From Shewanella baltica (lineage in GTDB: Bacteria; Pseudomonadota; Gammaproteobacteria; Enterobacterales; Shewanellaceae), in contig NZ_UGYM01000002.1 of assembly GCF_900456975.1 (NCBI RefSeq), forward strand, positions 868,001-932,000: 64,000 bases of DNA, given 5' to 3'. A program made the position numbers and the translations under genes. Shown here piece after piece: positions 8,979 to 36,876 of this stretch. Position 1 is the stretch's first letter; every line of letters starts with the position of its first letter. The notes beneath the pieces were generated by a model that was not told the origin of the DNA, searched no databases, and saw only the letters and a program-made list of their open reading frames with translations.

Positions 8979-9989
8979 TTATTGCCAATCACGCTCGTAG
9001 GCGCCAAGTGTAGTGATTTGACCCTCGGAAACTTTTGCAAGGGCTTGTTCCCAATGGGGTTGGTTTTGGCTTGTTGAGTACAGTTCTGGGTTATCCAGAT
9101 AGGTGTCTATGGCTTGACGCCAAACTCTCGTGACTTGCTCAACATAGGCTGGGCTGCGTTGGCGGCCTTCGATTTTCAACGACACTATGCCTGCCTTAGC
9201 GAGTTCGGGCAGTAAGCTTAAGGTATTTAAACTGGTTGGTGATTCGAGCAAATACTGCGGCGAATCTTGATCTTCCGTGATGTAACGGCCTTTACATACC
9301 ACGGGATAACCCATCTGTTCATCAAGGGCCGACTTATCAATCAACACATCGTTGAGCAGGGTTAATCGGTTCTGTCCTTCTTCATGCCAGCGCACGTGTT
9401 TTGCTGGTGAACAAGAGCCGCCGGTGTTGGGTGATTGACCCGTCACATAGGACGACAGCTGGCAACGACCTTCGGCCATGATGCATAGACTGCCGAAGGC
9501 GAACACTTCTAAATCCACTGGGCTGACCTTGGCAAGGTCACGCACTTGTTTCATCGATAACACCCGCGGCAACACGACTCGGGCGATGTTAAAAGCTTCT
9601 TTATAAAAGCTGAGCGCACCCAGATTGGTCGCACTGGCCTGCACCGATAAATGCAGCGGTAAGTGTGGATAATGTTTATGGGCATAATCGAGCAAAGAAA
9701 GATCGGCAACAATCAACGCATCCATTCCCAGTTTTGCAGCGAGATCGATAGCCTGATGCCAACGGTGCTCTTCGCCCGGTTTTGGAAAGGTATTTAAGGT
9801 CAAAAAAATTTTCTTGCCGTGCTTTTGCGTCAGCTCAGTGGCTTCTTGCAATTTTGCTGGGGTAAAGTTTAATCCTGCAAACGAGCGCGCGTTGGTGTCG
9901 TCTTTTAACCCTAGATATACTGCGTCGGCTCCGGCATGCAATGCCGACTTTAGCGAGGCCAGATTTCCTGCTGGACACAACAGCTCCAT
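8979..9989 (-). CDS. ubiU: UbiU, O2-independent ubiquinone hydroxylation protein (U32 family)
   Basis: This 336-residue protein starts MELLCPAGNLASLKSALHAG, the standard U32 N-terminus, and carries cysteines at 169, 176, 193 and 232, exactly the positions of the [4Fe-4S] ligands in the studied E. coli UbiU. It partners with UbiV in oxygen-independent hydroxylation of the ubiquinone precursor ring. It is first in the ubiUV operon and faces ubiT across a 137-bp gap that should hold both promoters. I looked there for an FNR-type TTGAT-N4-ATCAA site and found only weak partial matches (near 10049-10075). Confidence 0.94.
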   Translation of the reverse strand: MELLCPAGNLASLKSALHAGADAVYLGLKDDTNARSFAGLNFTPAKLQEATELTQKHGKKIFLTLNTFPKPGEEHRWHQAIDLAAKLGMDALIVADLSLLDYAHKHYPHLPLHLSVQASATNLGALSFYKEAFNIARVVLPRVLSMKQVRDLAKVSPVDLEVFAFGSLCIMAEGRCQLSSYVTGQSPNTGGSCSPAKHVRWHEEGQNRLTLLNDVLIDKSALDEQMGYPVVCKGRYITEDQDSPQYLLESPTSLNTLSLLPELAKAGIVSLKIEGRQRSPAYVEQVTRVWRQAIDTYLDNPELYSTSQNQPHWEQALAKVSEGQITTLGAYERDWQ

Positions 9990-30370: not shown

Positions 30371-31675
30371 ATGGACACTTTTCAACCCCATGAACTAAAA
30401 GTGAAAATTGATGTAAGACATGCTTTATTAGCCGTAGCTAAAGCATTAGATTTTGTGGGCGTTGATGACTTACATCATGGGCACAGGGTCGCGTATATGG
30501 CCTATGAATGTGCCTCGGTGTTAAATTGGCCCGATGATAAGAAGCAGTTTGCCTATTTTGCTGGGCTAATTCATGACTGTGGTGTGTCTTCATCGGAGGA
30601 ACATTTGCGTCTACTCAAGCTGATGCAGCCAGAGGGTGCCAACTCCCATTGCGAACGTGGCTATCAAGCTTTAGTAAAGTGTCCACTATTGGATAAGTTT
30701 GCAGCCTCAGTGCGCTATCATCATACCCCATGGATAGAGAGTCAGAGCCTCGTGTTGTCAGCGTTTGAGCGAGATATTGCTGCACTGATTTTTCTGGCAG
30801 ACCGTACAGACTTTTTACGCGCTCGATATACTCAAGGTTATCATGAGGAACTCATCACTTTGCATGAGAGCTTAGTGGCTGAAAATTTAAGGGTGCACAG
30901 TGGCAGTTTATTTGAACCGAATATGGTTGAGGCTATGTGCCAACTGGTTAATAAAGATGGCTTTTGGTACAGCATGGACGTCAATAGCATAGAGCAGATG
31001 GCTGTTGATTTTGAGATAAACCATTTTTATGACAAAGAGTTAGATCTCGACGGCGTTATTCAACTGGCTAGATTTCTCGCAAAAATAGTCGATGCTAAAA
31101 GTCCTTTTACTTTCCATCATTCCGATAAAGTGGCCTTGCTCGCAAAACTGGTTGCCCTCGATTGTGGCGTGCCAGCTCTCGATGCCGAGTTGTTATATGT
31201 CGCCGGTTTATTACACGATGTCGGCAAACTTAAAACCCCCGATGCGTTATTACACAAAGAAGGCAAGTTAACGAAAGAAGAATATTCCATCGTAAAACGC
31301 CACACAGTCGATACCGAAAACACCCTGAAATGTTTTTTCCCAAAATCAGTGATTGGTGAATGGGCTTCAAACCACCATGAACGTCTCGATGGTTCAGGTT
31401 ATCCCTTTAGCAAGCGGCAGGAAGAGTTAGATTTACCATCACGAGTTTTGGCTATCGTCGATGTATTCCAAGCACTCACGCAGAAACGGCCTTATCGGGG
31501 CTCATTGAAACTGACAGAAGTCTTTGAAATTATGGCTCCTATGGTTGAGCAAGGTAAGTTGGACTCGTATGTCTATGGTGTGTTGCAAGCTGATGCCGAT
31601 AGTTTTTATCAGTTATCTACCCAAGAATATAATGAAATGGAATTGCCAGCGTTGAGTCAGCATGGCTCGATTTAA
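30371..31675 (+). CDS. HD-GYP-type phosphohydrolase with two HD domains
   Basis: This 434-residue protein carries an N-terminal HD domain (about 35-165, with GHRVAYMAYEC and FAGLIHDCGVS) and a C-terminal HD-GYP domain (about 235-400). The latter shows HSDKVALLAKL, AGLLHDVGKLKTPDALL, KRHTVDTENTL, NHHERLDGSGYP and DVFQALTQKRPYRGSL. HD-GYP enzymes degrade c-di-GMP fully to GMP. All metal ligands appear to be present in the second domain, so activity is plausible; the first may be a sensory or dimerising module. The start is ATG 30371. Upstream is the RND terminator; downstream is a 246-bp gap. Confidence 0.88.
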   Translation: MDTFQPHELKVKIDVRHALLAVAKALDFVGVDDLHHGHRVAYMAYECASVLNWPDDKKQFAYFAGLIHDCGVSSSEEHLRLLKLMQPEGANSHCERGYQALVKCPLLDKFAASVRYHHTPWIESQSLVLSAFERDIAALIFLADRTDFLRARYTQGYHEELITLHESLVAENLRVHSGSLFEPNMVEAMCQLVNKDGFWYSMDVNSIEQMAVDFEINHFYDKELDLDGVIQLARFLAKIVDAKSPFTFHHSDKVALLAKLVALDCGVPALDAELLYVAGLLHDVGKLKTPDALLHKEGKLTKEEYSIVKRHTVDTENTLKCFFPKSVIGEWASNHHERLDGSGYPFSKRQEELDLPSRVLAIVDVFQALTQKRPYRGSLKLTEVFEIMAPMVEQGKLDSYVYGVLQADADSFYQLSTQEYNEMELPALSQHGSI

Positions 31676-31921: not shown

Positions 31922-32599
31922 ATGATCTTAAATCGCGCTTTATTTGCTCTAGTTCTGAGTGTTTCTGCCTCTCTGACGCCTCAAGTCATGGCCGCTGAGC
32001 TCAATATTAAGCTGGTGGATTTACAGCAGCAGGTGATTGCCGATACTGTCGTGGAGTTGATCCCGGCAGTGATGCCCGATAAGGCTATGCCTGTTGGACA
32101 TTATGAAATGTCACAAAAAAATCGAACCTTTATCCCTTTTGTGTTGGCGGTCCCTAAGGGCGCCAAGGTAGATTTTCCTAACCTAGATCGCACTCGTCAC
32201 CATGTGTATTCCTTTTCCGAGGCGAAACCTTTCGAACTTAAACTGTATGTGGGTCAAGCCGAAGCGCCGATCCTGTTCGATAAACCCGGCTTAGTCGCAC
32301 TTGGCTGCAATATTCACGATTATATGCAGGCATTTATCTATGTGGCGGATAGCCCAATTGTTGCGGTGACGGACGAAAAAGGTGAGTTCCAGTTTAAGGA
32401 TCTTGCGGCCGGTCAATATAAAGTCAAACTCTGGCATCCCTGGCAGAAGGCAGCCTCCGAGCCGACTGAGCTAATGCTAACCTCTGGCGTGAATCAACTC
32501 AGTTTGTCCTTAGACATTGAACGCCAAGCTAAACCGTCAGCCCCGCCAGCGGGATTTGGCCACTACGATGCTCAAGGCAAGCCATTACATGCTAAATAG
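31922..32599 (+). CDS. Periplasmic cupredoxin-like (methylamine-utilization-type) copper protein
   Basis: This 225-residue exported protein has a signal peptide ending near VMAAEL (about residue 25). It then has a beta domain with a likely type-1 copper site (His93/His94 in TRHHVYSF, and Cys129, His132, Met135 in GCNIHDYM) and a C-terminal beta-sandwich/carboxypeptidase-regulatory-like segment (EKGEFQFKDLAAGQYKVKLWHP). Proteins of this type are often labelled methylamine utilization proteins, but no methylamine dehydrogenase genes are nearby. GAGGTAACTG precedes the ATG. It is the first gene of a four-gene operon and overlaps the next by a few bases. The role is probably redox or copper sensing for the downstream phosphodiesterase (inference). 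Confidence 0.85.
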   Translation: MILNRALFALVLSVSASLTPQVMAAELNIKLVDLQQQVIADTVVELIPAVMPDKAMPVGHYEMSQKNRTFIPFVLAVPKGAKVDFPNLDRTRHHVYSFSEAKPFELKLYVGQAEAPILFDKPGLVALGCNIHDYMQAFIYVADSPIVAVTDEKGEFQFKDLAAGQYKVKLWHPWQKAASEPTELMLTSGVNQLSLSLDIERQAKPSAPPAGFGHYDAQGKPLHAK

Positions 32600-34895
32600 T
32601 TTTCGCGCACGGCTGATTTTAGTTTTCTTTATTGTGCTGACTCTAGTGCAGTTTGCCACGGCATTTTCTGTATTGACGGCGACCGAAAGGGACAACTTTT
32701 TACAGCAACAAAAAAGTTTAGATATTGGTGCAAATGTGTTTCTCGAAGTCCTTTCGAATCGCGGTATTCAGCTCAGCCAAAGTTTGTCCGTGCTCAGTGC
32801 CGATTTTGGTTTTAAGCGCGCGATTGCCACCGGCGAGCAAGAAACCATTGAGTCAGTGTTATCCAATCACGGTTCTCGTATCGGCGCCGACGCTGCTGTG
32901 TTGTTATCACCTAAAGGGGAGCTCTTGACCTCGAGTCTACCCGGACTCACTCAGGATGACATTCAATCCTTATTCGATATGACCACCAGCAATAACAATG
33001 CTTTAGCTATCCTCAATTTTGATCATGCCAGCTATCAGTTTGTGTTGCAGCCCGTGAAGGCGCCGACCTTGATTGCTTGGGTCGGAATGGGATTCCTATT
33101 GGATGAGAAAGTCGCCCAACAAGCTAAAGCCATTACCGGTATCGATGTCAGCTTTGTCAATCAAGCCACGGGTCGCACCGAAATCGCGTCAACCTTATCC
33201 GACGATGAAAAACGCAGTGTGGTAGAGCAGGCGAGCCTATTCCCCAGTCTACTGAAAATGCCCAGTGAGAACATTCCCGTGGATTATCTGTCCATGGCGA
33301 TCAAACTTTATGATCATAACGGCAGCCAATTAGCCCTATTGCATCAGTCAAACCTTAAGTGGCAGCAAAGTTATCAGCATCTACGCAATAATATGTTGCT
33401 GATTTTTGCCTTGACCTTAGCGCTGGCGATTGTGATTGCGATTTGGTTGTCGGGCAGTTTGACTGAGCCCGTGCATCAACTGGTAACTTATGCCCGTAAA
33501 ATTGGTCAAGGTAAGCAGCCTGGCAGTATTCAAGGTGCGCCAGCAGAACTGCGGGTGTTGGCCAAAAGTTTGTCCTTGATGCGTGACGATATTGAAGCGC
33601 GGGAAAAGGATTTAGTCTATCAATCCCGCCACGACAGTTTGACGGGGTTGCTCAATCGTTTTGCGGCAAAACAGCATTTAGCGGATCTTAAACATGAGCT
33701 ATCCGGCGCTATGGTATTGCTGGATATTAAACATTTTCGCCATATCAACGACATTATCGGTTTTGCTAACGCCGATACTTTGTTGCTGCTTTTTGCCCGT
33801 CGCTTAGAGCAATTAGCCCCGACTCCAGATTTACTCGCGCGATTAGACGGCGACTCATTTTTACTCCTGTATAGCCAAGGCATTCGTCCCGAGCACTTGC
33901 TGAAATCATTGGATATGTTGGAGTCGCCATTTCCAATCCAAGGCTCAAATATCTCTCTTACCGTGCGGGCGGGATTACTTGAAATCGATGGTAATGGTGC
34001 CGATATCGATGTGTTAGTACGCCGCGCCGAAATTGCCCTCAATCAAGCCTGTCTCGAGGAGCAACGCATTGTCAGTTATCGTCAGGGCGCCGATGAGAAA
34101 TACCAGCGTGAGCTGACTATTATCCGCGATTTGCCCATAGGTTTGGCGCAAAACCAACTCTATCTCGTGTTTCAACCTAAGGTGGATTTACACTTAAATC
34201 AGTGTACTGGCGCCGAGGCACTGATCCGCTGGCAGCATCCAACCTTAGGGTTTATTCCGCCCGATGAGTTTATTCAACTCGCTGAAAACTCTGGCAACAT
34301 TGATATCGTCAGCCAATGGGTGTTGCAGCAGGCGATCAAACAATTAGTCGCATGGCAGCAGCGAGGTATGCAGCTAAAACTGGCCATTAACCTGTCGGCC
34401 CATGATTTAGCCGATACCCGTTTGCCGAATCAAATTGCTAGTTTATTAAAAGATAATAATCTGCCAAGCGGCGCACTCTGCATCGAAGTTACCGAAGGCG
34501 CTGTGATGAAAGATGCACAGACTGTGGTGAGCGTATTGCAGCGATTCCGTGACATGGGTGTATCCGTCGCCATCGATGACTTTGGCACGGGGCATTCATC
34601 CTTAGCTTATTTGAAAATTTTGCCCGTCAATGAAGTGAAGATTGATCGTAGCTTTATCAAAGACATGCTCACGAATAGCCAAGATGTGATGATAGTGAAC
34701 ACGAGCATTCAGTTGATCCACGGTCTAGGGTTTACCGTCGTGGCCGAAGGGGTTGAGGAACCAGAAGGTGTTGACATCCTGCGTAACCTCAATTGCGACA
34801 TCATCCAAGGCTATGTGTTTTCAAAACCCTTAAAAGCGGCTGAATTTGATCTGTGGTTTGAAGCGTTTAACCATGCAAATCCCTCAGACACATAA
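32589..34895 (+). CDS. Membrane-bound sensor GGDEF/EAL protein, probable c-di-GMP phosphodiesterase
   Basis: This protein of about 768 residues has a first membrane helix (about 6-27), a periplasmic sensor of about 240 residues (CACHE-like by layout), a second helix (NMLLIFALTLALAIVIAIWLSG), a HAMP linker (LTEPVHQLVTYARKIGQG), a GGDEF domain and an EAL domain. The GGDEF motif is LDGDSF, so it is degenerate and probably not a cyclase. The EAL catalytic motifs (AEALIRWQHP, the Asn of AINLSAHDL, IEVTEGA, DDFGTGHSSLAYL, EVKIDRS, AEGVEEPE) are intact. ATG 32589 was chosen because the first helix then starts at once; ATG 32568 and a further upstream start at 32517 are possible. It overlaps the copper protein gene by 11 bases, implying coupled translation. 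Confidence 0.88.
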   Translation: MLNSFRARLILVFFIVLTLVQFATAFSVLTATERDNFLQQQKSLDIGANVFLEVLSNRGIQLSQSLSVLSADFGFKRAIATGEQETIESVLSNHGSRIGADAAVLLSPKGELLTSSLPGLTQDDIQSLFDMTTSNNNALAILNFDHASYQFVLQPVKAPTLIAWVGMGFLLDEKVAQQAKAITGIDVSFVNQATGRTEIASTLSDDEKRSVVEQASLFPSLLKMPSENIPVDYLSMAIKLYDHNGSQLALLHQSNLKWQQSYQHLRNNMLLIFALTLALAIVIAIWLSGSLTEPVHQLVTYARKIGQGKQPGSIQGAPAELRVLAKSLSLMRDDIEAREKDLVYQSRHDSLTGLLNRFAAKQHLADLKHELSGAMVLLDIKHFRHINDIIGFANADTLLLLFARRLEQLAPTPDLLARLDGDSFLLLYSQGIRPEHLLKSLDMLESPFPIQGSNISLTVRAGLLEIDGNGADIDVLVRRAEIALNQACLEEQRIVSYRQGADEKYQRELTIIRDLPIGLAQNQLYLVFQPKVDLHLNQCTGAEALIRWQHPTLGFIPPDEFIQLAENSGNIDIVSQWVLQQAIKQLVAWQQRGMQLKLAINLSAHDLADTRLPNQIASLLKDNNLPSGALCIEVTEGAVMKDAQTVVSVLQRFRDMGVSVAIDDFGTGHSSLAYLKILPVNEVKIDRSFIKDMLTNSQDVMIVNTSIQLIHGLGFTVVAEGVEEPEGVDILRNLNCDIIQGYVFSKPLKAAEFDLWFEAFNHANPSDT

Positions 34896-34968
34896 GTTAA
34901 TTTACCCAAGAAAGCGCACAAAAGGCGTTAAAATTAGACGTCTTCGAAAGAATAAAGCGGAGTAGCGA

Positions 34969-35850
34969 GTGAACATTGCCATGAATGCATTGAAGTTGAA
35001 TTCATTAGCTTGGAATTATTTGAAGGCTTTGCCTTGCCTGTGTTTACTATTGGGCACAGTCCCTGCATTTGCCGAAGGTAGCCGCGTGGTTGCGACTGGC
35101 GGCGGGACGACGATTGAGGGCAGTGCTGGCGGTGGCATAGTGCCGTGGGCGGTGATCAACGGTTATGGCAGTAGCGATGAATGGTCCGCTACGGCGATGG
35201 CGACAGGCGTTTATGTCGATGACTTTTCGCTGAAAGTGATTGGCGCTTCCTTGAGTTTTGATAATCGATTCGAACTGAGTTTAGCGCGGCAAACCTTTGA
35301 TTTAGATACTATGGGCGGCGAGTTAGGCCAAGATATCTTTGGGGTAAAATACAAGCTTGCCGGCGAGTTACTTTATACGGCTATGCCGCAAATCACCTTA
35401 GGTGCCCAGTATAAAAGAGTCGATGACTTTGCGATTCCTCTGGCGGTTGGGGCGCGGGATGATTGGGGGTTAGATGTGTATATTGCGGCCAGCAAAGTAT
35501 TTTTCGATGCGGTGGCGGGGCGCAATTTATTACTTAATGGTACCGTGCGCGCGACCAAGGCGAATCAAACGGGTTTATTGGGTTTTGGTACCCAAGCCAG
35601 TAATGATTACCAGTTTGTGCTCGAAGCGTCTGCGGCGGTATTGCTGACGGATAATGTGGCGCTGGGTATCGAATATCGCCAGAAACCCAATGAGTTAGCT
35701 TTTGCCCGTGAAGATGATTGGCAGGATGTGTTTTTAGCGTGGTTTATCAATAAGCATCTTTCCGTGGTCACGGCTTATGCGAATTTAGGCAGTATTGCGG
35801 GTTTTGCCGATCAGCAAGGTTGGTATGTGTCGGTAGAGGGAACACTATGA
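34969..35850 (+). CDS. DUF3034-family outer-membrane-like protein
   Basis: This 293-residue exported protein has a signal peptide (hydrophobic to about residue 35, cleaved near AFAEGS). The mature part consists of alternating beta strands with aromatic residues and ends in YVSVEGTL, as expected for an outer-membrane beta-barrel. The GGGTTIEGSAGGGIVPWAVINGYG opening is characteristic of DUF3034. Function is unknown. The start is GTG 34969, supported by GCGGAGTAGCGA; ATG 34981 is an alternative. Its last four bases overlap the ATG of the haemoglobin gene (ATGA), so the two are translationally coupled. It could be the outer-membrane part of the copper/globin operon. Confidence 0.85.
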   Translation: MNIAMNALKLNSLAWNYLKALPCLCLLLGTVPAFAEGSRVVATGGGTTIEGSAGGGIVPWAVINGYGSSDEWSATAMATGVYVDDFSLKVIGASLSFDNRFELSLARQTFDLDTMGGELGQDIFGVKYKLAGELLYTAMPQITLGAQYKRVDDFAIPLAVGARDDWGLDVYIAASKVFFDAVAGRNLLLNGTVRATKANQTGLLGFGTQASNDYQFVLEASAAVLLTDNVALGIEYRQKPNELAFAREDDWQDVFLAWFINKHLSVVTAYANLGSIAGFADQQGWYVSVEGTL

Positions 35851-36323
35851 GTCGTTTATTGCTGAAGCTATTACCTGTCGCCGCTTTGCTTTTTTTCACT
35901 GGTTGCGCAGTGCAAACGGCTGAAACATCGGCGCCACAGGTTAACTCAAATAATGACACCTCAAGCCCGCAAACCTTATACCAAGCGCTAGGTGGTGAAG
36001 CCGGTTTATCGGCGATTGTCGATGGTTTACTTGCCCGCATAGCAACCGATCCACGCATAGTGCATCACTTCCAAGAGACGGATATTGCGTTATTTCGTGA
36101 GCGCGCCATTGAGCATTTTTGTCTGGTTGCTGATGGCGGTTGTGTGTATCACGGTGAAAATATGGCACTGAGTCATCAAGGGTTGAATATTACTCAGGCG
36201 GATTTTGATGCCTTAGTGGGCCATTTAATTGAATCGATGAAGGAGCAACACATACCATTATCGACCCGCAATGCCCTCCTAAAACGTCTCGCACCTATGT
36301 ATTCGGACATTACCTATCATTAG
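35847..36323 (+). CDS. Group 1 truncated haemoglobin, lipoprotein form
   Basis: This 158-residue protein begins with a lipoprotein signal, MSRLLLKLLPVAALLFFTGC (acylated Cys20), followed by a 20-residue linker. The truncated globin domain starts SPQTLYQALGGEAGLSAIVDGLLARI and has the proximal-helix segment YHGENMALSHQGLNIT with the haem-ligand His at about 110. Most truncated globins are cytoplasmic; this one should be anchored in the envelope facing the periplasm. ATG 35847 overlaps the stop of the DUF3034 gene. It is the last gene of the operon, before the terminator at 36363-36396. The ligand may be NO or O2; this is inference from the family. Confidence 0.9.
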   Translation: MSRLLLKLLPVAALLFFTGCAVQTAETSAPQVNSNNDTSSPQTLYQALGGEAGLSAIVDGLLARIATDPRIVHHFQETDIALFRERAIEHFCLVADGGCVYHGENMALSHQGLNITQADFDALVGHLIESMKEQHIPLSTRNALLKRLAPMYSDITYH

Positions 36324-36362
36324 AGGTGTTGTAACTTTGATGGCTAAAATAGTGAATTTAAG

Positions 36363-36396
36363 ATGCTGCTGTCGTGATCGATAGCAGCATTTTTTA
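36363..36396 (+). terminator. Rho-independent terminator after the haemoglobin gene
   Basis: ATGCTGCT and AGCAGCAT arms, extended inward by GTCG/CGAT-type pairing, are followed by TTTTT. It closes the copper/EAL/DUF3034/globin operon. Confidence 0.85.
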
Positions 36397-36402
36397 TGGG
36401 TG

Positions 36403-36876
36403 CTAGAGCAAGAGCGCTGCATCGATGGGGTGAAATTGAGACGCTGCATCCCTTAAGGATTTAGCCGTCAGGGTAGGAACGCCATAGACTTGGGTTTCAA
36501 CGCCATATTTTTGATGGATTTTTTGCAGCAATAAATCGAAATCGCCATCACCAGACAATAAGATAACAGTATCCACTTCACTCGCCGCTTCCATAATATC
36601 GATAGTGATCCCCACATCCCAGTCGCCTTTGGCCGAGCCATCGCTGCGCTGAATGAAAGGTTTTAACTTCACCTCAAAGCCTATGTACTTTAACGCGTCC
36701 TGGAATTTTAACTGCCCATCGTCCCCCTTGTGGATGGCATAAGCCACGGCCAACGCTATGTCGCCTTCGTAACCTAAGTGTTGCCATAATTTACGGTAAT
36801 TAAATTGGCGGCCATAGGCTTCACGGCAGGTGTAATAGATGTTTTGTACATCCACAAATAAAGCGATTTTCTTCAC
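36403..36876 (-). CDS. NYN-domain (LabA/DUF88-like) putative ribonuclease
   Basis: This 157-residue NYN (PIN-like) domain protein has metal-binding acidic residues in LFVDVQNIYY (N-terminus), GDWDVGITIDIMEAA (middle) and LLSGDGDFDLLLQ, followed by VYGVP at the strand near the end. NYN proteins are predicted or shown to be RNases acting on RNA or tRNA. The whole family core is present and nothing is fused. It stands alone, convergent with the globin operon. The physiological substrate is unknown. Confidence 0.88.
   Translation of the reverse strand: MKKIALFVDVQNIYYTCREAYGRQFNYRKLWQHLGYEGDIALAVAYAIHKGDDGQLKFQDALKYIGFEVKLKPFIQRSDGSAKGDWDVGITIDIMEAASEVDTVILLSGDGDFDLLLQKIHQKYGVETQVYGVPTLTAKSLRDAASQFHPIDAALLL

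Follow-up and report, generated by a model that had tools for sequence, protein, structure and literature searches.

What might a bacterial operon report on when it encodes, side by side, a predicted copper protein, a membrane receptor with a predicted cyclic di-GMP (c-di-GMP) phosphodiesterase, a predicted outer-membrane barrel and a globin predicted to be exported? The question is raised by four genes, here termed g1 to g4, which lie on the plus strand at 31922-36323 of a 64,000-nucleotide stretch of DNA (the window) from a 5.3-Mb Shewanella genome. The original prediction for this locus had taken them for a single envelope pathway that senses a redox gas or copper state and lowers c-di-GMP. 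Our analysis suggests that the operon likely reads the redox or gas state of the envelope and would alter c-di-GMP, and we assign a probability of about 0.4 to the more specific reading in which the four products act as one envelope sensor, the signal running from g4 and g3 through g1 to g2 and ending in c-di-GMP breakdown. The features on which the argument draws are:

31922..32599, plus strand: g1, predicted periplasmic type-1 copper protein (cupredoxin), 225 amino acids (AlphaFold2, Foldseek, profile against PDB sequences, database names)
32198..32326, plus strand: predicted copper ligands of g1, H93, C129, H132 and M135, with a C-x2-H-x2-M loop (invariant in 67/67 rows of the alignment of relatives)
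32589..34895, plus strand: g2, predicted inner-membrane receptor, dCache_3-HAMP-GGDEF (degenerate, DGDSF)-EAL, 768 amino acids, ATG start (Pfam)
34969 (GTG start) or 34981 (ATG start)..35850, plus strand: g3, DUF3034 protein, predicted 12-stranded outer-membrane barrel, 293 or 289 amino acids (PF11231, AlphaFold2, Foldseek)
35847..36323, plus strand: g4, predicted lipoprotein group-I truncated globin, 158 amino acids (PF01152, PDB relatives, conservation)
35895..35906, plus strand: lipobox of g4, F-T-G-C, with lipidation at Cys20 and Ala at position +2 (from the sequence)
36120..36143, plus strand: Cys92 and Cys99 of g4 (C-x6-C), a possible disulfide (each Cys in 74/75 rows)
36174..36176, plus strand: His110 (F8) of g4, predicted proximal haem ligand (75/75 rows)
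36360..36393, plus strand: terminator hairpin 3' of g4, its 3' arm entering a T tract (15 pairs, -22.9 kcal/mol, z -7.06)

The frames of g1 and g2 share 11 bp and those of g3 and g4 share 4 bp (ATGA), and the gap from g2 to g3 is 73 bp from the GTG start or 85 bp from the ATG start. The hairpin was absent from the list returned by a pattern scanner. Open reading frames and hairpin together bear out the coordinates, both overlaps and the single terminator as originally described.

The arrangement is conserved beyond the window. PF11231 was found in 27/129 genomes of the genus, 18/369 of a class draw and 39/398 of a phylum draw, and the neighbourhoods of 77 distinct DUF3034 genomes were analysed, with one class-draw genome excluded for a contig edge (G207; 18 to 17) and with loci on contigs already present via genomes in the draws (L020-L026, L030) omitted from the conservation counts. 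A gene was counted as linked when its profile match lay at most 5 kb from g3, its frame being whole or not. By this measure all four genes are linked in 61 of the 77 genomes (26/27 in Shewanella, 9/17 in the class draw and 31/39 in the phylum draw), and co-occurrence in other genomes, named beforehand as one of two points on which the prediction could be refuted, thus holds. On the second point, cofactor binding at the globin and copper sites, the predicted ligand residues are intact. At least three of the 61 contain interrupted frames (g2 in G450/L094, g2 and g3 in G085/L108, g1 in G490/L085), and the contig of the single Shewanella miss (G465) starts at g3. The two distal genes are close neighbours almost throughout, with g4 within 100 bp of g3 in 72/77 genomes and on the same strand in 71. 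Some loci are colinear and others read g3-g4-g1; in six phylum-draw genomes of another class (G627, G692, G727, G733, G798, G804), where all four are present, the pairs g2-g1 and g3-g4 point away from each other. The genes flanking the operon vary from locus to locus within Shewanella, so that the unit is kept and its surroundings change.

The association also holds when presence anywhere in the genome is considered. A g1 match occurs in 38/39 DUF3034 genomes of the phylum draw, compared with 50/359 of the others at an E-value of 0.001 and 13/359 at 150 bits or more; at most seven candidates were scored per genome in this search, so absence of g1 in the phylum draw is a soft result. Six of the eight phylum-draw misses carry the missing g1, or g1-receptor pair, elsewhere (G738, G691, G862, G702, G723, G606), and the other two are a genome with g3-g4-g1 and no receptor nearby (G107) and one with no g1 match (G563). 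Within Shewanella, a g4-type globin (at least 150 bits, the next match scoring 100) is present in 27/27 DUF3034 genomes and 1/102 others, with a Fisher p of 6e-27 when descent is ignored. The lone exception (G416) is a relic, a globin without an export signal that has an NYN-type gene alongside and no match to g1, g2 or g3 in the 13 kb around it.

What, then, are the four products? Searched against Pfam, g1 gave no family above cut-off. Its AlphaFold2 model has a predicted local distance difference test score (pLDDT) of 91 and an N-terminal helix at residues 2-17, and Foldseek matched the predicted fold with probability 1.00 to the cupredoxin domain of NirK, pseudoazurin and amicyanin. The same kinds of solved structure were retrieved when a profile of 33 g1 relatives was compared with PDB sequences. 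The cupredoxin fold together with the His/Cys/His/Met set identifies g1 as a predicted type-1 (blue) copper protein. Relatives are labelled 'methylamine utilization protein' or 'plastocyanin' in their source records. A role of the operon in methylamine use was considered and rejected: the light chain of methylamine dehydrogenase was found in 0/27 operon-bearing Shewanella (2/129 overall), and there is therefore no sign of a tie to methylamine use.

The second product matches EAL (E 3.2e-71), GGDEF (3.6e-22) and dCache_3 (4.4e-16), with HAMP below cut-off. The catalytic set of an EAL phosphodiesterase comprises EAL, N, E, DD, K, E and Q, and these positions are intact in 62/62 rows of the g2 alignment. 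The GGDEF motif reads DGDSF in the window and is canonical (GGDEF or GGEEF) in 13/62 rows, and thus is not that of an active diguanylate cyclase. Taken together, the predicted activity of g2 is c-di-GMP breakdown. The LapD model NF045673 of NCBIfam scores g2 at 111.6 bits against a cut-off of 1020, which places it outside that family. In the sensor no alignment column has Cys in 30% or more of the 62 rows. When a sensor profile that included the window receptor was run against the host genome, the sole full-length match was g2, alongside 19 partial matches (18 in the second half), which argues against receptors of this kind being commonplace in that genome. Two loci (L123, L158) have an extra g2-family gene directly 5' of g1, besides the one downstream.

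The other two products would carry the system to the outer membrane. For g3, the match to DUF3034 exceeds the curated cut-off (E 1.9e-111, 372 bits, cut-off 25), its nearest named relatives come from S. baltica, and the AlphaFold2 model has 12 strands with a pLDDT of 67 and a predicted template modelling score of 0.68. The best structures found by Foldseek with this model are outer-membrane barrels, namely FapF, Omp33, OmpG, NanC and KdgM. In the open-access papers searched, DUF3034 appears in one on retrons, where the same legend elsewhere has DUF3037, and in one that lists a Streptomyces membrane protein. Gene g4 matches Bac_globin (PF01152, E 6.3e-14) as a group-I truncated globin. Ala at position +2 of a lipoprotein directs it to the outer membrane, which is where g4 would be sorted. 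Among 75 g4 relatives the N-terminus was called lipobox-like in 54 and another hydrophobic export signal in 16, and the five with neither include several over-long frames. The predicted locations of g1-g4 thus agree with the periplasm, inner membrane and outer membrane to which the products had been allotted.

Positions B10, E7 and E11 on the distal side of the predicted haem pocket of g4 are apolar in 74/75 rows, and the best solved match of the g4 profile is, narrowly, the HbN entry 2gl3, with B10 aligned as Phe and E11 as Val, at 93.1 bits compared with 90.7 bits for the unchanged protein. With its predicted F8 His and hydrophobic B10/E7/E11, g4 fits TrHbN-2, subgroup 2 of the group-I truncated haemoglobins, by its residue pattern. 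In the part of PMC11904497 consulted (section 4), TrHbN-2 is defined by hydrophobic B10, E7 and E11, and low O2 affinity is expected of it.

Which of these genes belong most closely together is informed by g1 loci outside the DUF3034 loci, of which 36, a part of all g1 matches, were analysed. A receptor lies within 150 bp of g1 on the same strand in 25 of them; two have hybrid kinases further along, and nine have no sensor match. The hybrid histidine kinases of L223 and L224 were considered as the same receptor and rejected, the sensor profile scoring weakly (86 and 43 bits) and dCache_3 giving no match. Among the nine, there is a PAS-GGDEF gene at a distance of 0.9 kb in one locus (L209), and in four (L202, L204, L218, L219) an outer-membrane-type protein comes directly after g1. 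Such a protein, of about 408-447 amino acids and likely located in the outer membrane, is also the third gene of 15 loci (L192-L201, L203, L205-L207, L212) in which it accompanies a g1-like cupredoxin and a receptor. These 15 loci form a second operon that repeats the plan of copper protein, receptor and likely outer-membrane protein. The 19 outer-membrane-type proteins of the 15 and four loci form one BLAST-connected group, end in a C-terminal aromatic residue in 17/19 cases and have no detectable similarity to DUF3034. A Pfam search of five of them gave Porin_4 below cut-off in two and no match in three, and no solved relative was found for the one from L199.

The output of the receptor beside g1 also differs between loci. 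A Ser/Thr protein kinase takes this place in two DUF3034 loci (L028, L112) and in one locus lacking DUF3034 (L221), and a class III nucleotide cyclase does so in two more that lack it (L213, L214). The first of the kinase loci has all four genes, in the order g3-g4-g1-receptor. The dCache_3 domain scores above cut-off in L112, L221, L213 and L214 and below it in L028 (22.4 against 25.7 bits). The exchange of outputs beside a constant g1 points, at the level of sequence, to a signalling unit whose output can be swapped. The claim that the system lowers c-di-GMP is supported for the window in that the EAL site of g2 is intact and its GGDEF motif is degenerate, but c-di-GMP as the sole output is ruled out by the kinase and nucleotide-cyclase receptors found beside g1 elsewhere.

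Some further neighbours of g1 were recorded in these loci. In L202 and L204, a TonB receptor gene and one for a PKHD-type hydroxylase precede g1 and its outer-membrane-type gene (genes identified by Pfam in L202 and only by similar size and N-terminus in L204). Di-haem cytochrome c peroxidases of the CCP_MauG family occur near distant g1 relatives (L223, 5184-6194; L226, 8206-9327).

How could the products work together? The simplest reading places the cofactors on g1 and g4 and has the receptor read g1, because predicted ligands are invariant in the former two and few in the g2 sensor. The globin, predicted to be exported, with its apolar pocket and probably low affinity, would bind a small ligand near g3; O2 is the most likely candidate, although the ligand is a guess. 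It would then exchange electrons with g1 and would likely set redox conditions in the outer envelope, which g1 would report. In one of its redox forms, perhaps the reduced one at low O2 (which form activates is again a guess), g1 would dock on the dCache domain of g2 and switch on the phosphodiesterase, so that c-di-GMP would drop and cells would leave the surface or swim. A wider generalization may be offered tentatively, and we would not be surprised to see it fail: cupredoxin-coupled receptors could be a new class of transmembrane receptors in bacteria, each served by a blue-copper protein of its own in the periplasm and reading the redox or ligand state of that protein. Their outputs would be c-di-GMP breakdown, Ser/Thr phosphorylation or cyclic-nucleotide synthesis, and on the outer side they would take their input from barrels in the outer membrane and from an apolar globin that is exported.

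Several observations weigh against the four products forming one sensor. In one genome a single deletion of about 1 kb (scar at 9436-9693 of G439/L191) took most of g3 and g4, leaving one relic of each, and left g1-g2 intact; g3 and g4 can therefore go together while g1-g2 stays, and g1-g2 needs no g3-g4. Conversely, G563 carries g3-g4 with no g1 match in its genome, in G280 and G358 no g1 lies close to that pair, g3 stands alone in 4/17 class-draw genomes (G259, G026, G267, G156; three on contigs shorter than 13 kb), and the kinase-type DUF3034 locus L112 has no g4 match. The distances of g1, g2 and g4 are correlated over the 61 loci (Mantel r 0.88-0.94), as vertical descent alone would likewise predict. 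The g2 sensor has candidate ligands of its own, with His in 48/62 and Met in 42/62 rows and two further His columns (24 and 29), and confidence in the g3 model is moderate (pLDDT 67). The set thus divides into a g1-g2 module and a g3-g4 module, either of which also occurs without the other, and these results speak against an indivisible unit of four.

In a different explanation, g1, g3 and g4 would form a periplasmic route for redox or gas handling (electron transfer, or O2 or peroxide handling) and the phosphodiesterase would only be co-regulated, no receptor reading the cupredoxin. Cupredoxins are electron carriers, g3-g4 is found without g1-g2, and the distant g1 relatives near CCP_MauG genes (L223, L226) and a g1 beside a Redoxin-family gene (L222) fit such a route. 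It is nevertheless g1 and the receptor that travel together, not g1 and the barrel-globin pair: the receptor is adjacent in 25/36 g1 loci lacking DUF3034, some with swapped outputs, and we regard the redox route as rather unlikely. Two other alternatives differ in what is sensed, and on these the promoters have some bearing. We scanned 68 regions 5' of g1 for FNR, CRP, NsrR, sigma-54, Fur and CueR sites and compared the counts with five rounds of base shuffling; no regulator site was convincing in these regions. Matches were weak for sigma-54 (22, with 11.8 in shuffles) and for Fur (16, with 6.6 in shuffles). If g1 signalled its copper loading, bound or empty, to g2, with globin and barrel protecting or supplying it, invariance of the predicted copper ligands in 67/67 rows would fit, but CueR-like sites at a loose threshold show no enrichment (60 of the 68 regions against 64.4 in shuffles) and the globin would be a partner without a clear role in copper sensing. 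Such a copper sensor seems improbable.

Slightly less probable still is a nitric oxide (NO) sensor for dispersal, in which g4 would prefer NO over O2 and the unit would replace the cytoplasmic H-NOX route where that is missing. The apolar B10/E7/E11 pocket is compatible with this, and H-NOX is rarer in operon-bearing Shewanella (3/27 against 38/102; Fisher p 0.01, descent ignored). Yet nirK above cut-off is no more frequent in operon-bearing than in other Shewanella (3/27 against 13/102, p 1.0), and neither NsrR-like (0 against 1.0 in shuffles) nor FNR-like sites (55 against 50) are enriched in the upstream regions. A sensor in which g2 reads the state of g1, with input from g3 and g4, is the explanation we prefer.

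If this explanation is correct, the redox or gas state of the envelope is read via a diffusible copper protein, not via a cofactor of the receptor, and the same reader is reused with several outputs. DUF3034 would then have a role that experiments can test, as would the exported truncated globins, which have no assigned use, and the 'methylamine' proteins, which show no sign of methylamine use. In Shewanella, as in other proteobacteria, control of c-di-GMP would gain an input from the outer membrane. The set is common to part of the genus Shewanella and to a range of other proteobacteria.

Genes around the operon in the window were also noted. Upstream, an HD_5 (HD-GYP-type) gene of 434 amino acids (30371-31675, plus strand) stops 246 bp before g1; a close homologue lies immediately 5' of the operon in L094, L097, L099 and L100, and a different gene matching it weakly (397 amino acids in L089, L098 and L107) is found 3' of g4, in convergent orientation, at many other Shewanella loci. 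Downstream, an NYN-domain gene (36403-36876, minus strand) is convergent with the operon, and a similar gene adjoins the truncated globin relic of G416/L227.

How does the operon compare with systems already described? No description of the four-gene set was found in the open-access literature, among the matches listed and with most papers of subscription journals and all preprints outside the scope. Individual members do have likenesses. In its group-I fold, its hydrophobic B10/E7/E11 and the low O2 affinity to be expected, g4 resembles TrHbN-2 globins such as Shewanella benthica HbN, as these are presented in the consulted part of PMC11904497. It differs from that account in its predicted export and lipidation, its conserved C-x6-C pair and its place beside a barrel and a receptor in one operon; the terms 'operon', 'periplasm' and 'signal peptide' have no match in the text of that paper. 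In excerpts of PMC11976967, the proposal is made that periplasmic truncated-haemoglobin domains of pentahaem cytochromes from cable bacteria draw electrons from a redox chain in the envelope. Those domains are fused to multihaem cytochromes and, in the same excerpts, no cupredoxin or receptor partner is mentioned (PMC11976967). The name 'methylamine utilization protein' and the cupredoxin fold link g1 to MauL-like cupredoxins, from which it is set apart by the lack of methylamine dehydrogenase in the 27 operon-bearing Shewanella. In the literature, 'methylamine utilization protein' and 'EAL domain' occur together only as separate genes of Leptospira, among the matches listed.

At the level of the whole system, a periplasmic protein also talks to a GGDEF-EAL membrane receptor in NspS-MbaA. 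The operon shares this pairing of periplasmic partner and receptor, but NspS is a solute-binding protein and g1 a predicted metalloprotein. The YfiBNR system is defined by a periplasmic partner of the YfiR family and the OmpA-like lipoprotein YfiB. Neither g1 nor g4 matches such a Pfam family, g4 being a Bac_globin, and since the partner families differ the operon is not a YfiBNR member, though it would be the same kind of three-compartment relay. YfiBNR is presented, in the parts of PMC4887326, PMC4655355 and PMC3375315 consulted, as a tripartite c-di-GMP system of Pseudomonas. There, as is proposed here, an outer-membrane lipoprotein, a periplasmic protein and an inner-membrane c-di-GMP enzyme pass the state of the envelope to c-di-GMP. 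Compared with those partial accounts, the present operon has a predicted blue-copper partner, a globin as the lipoprotein, an added barrel, predicted breakdown of c-di-GMP by an EAL domain and outputs that are swapped between lineages. On this evidence YfiBNR would appear to be the nearest working analogue.

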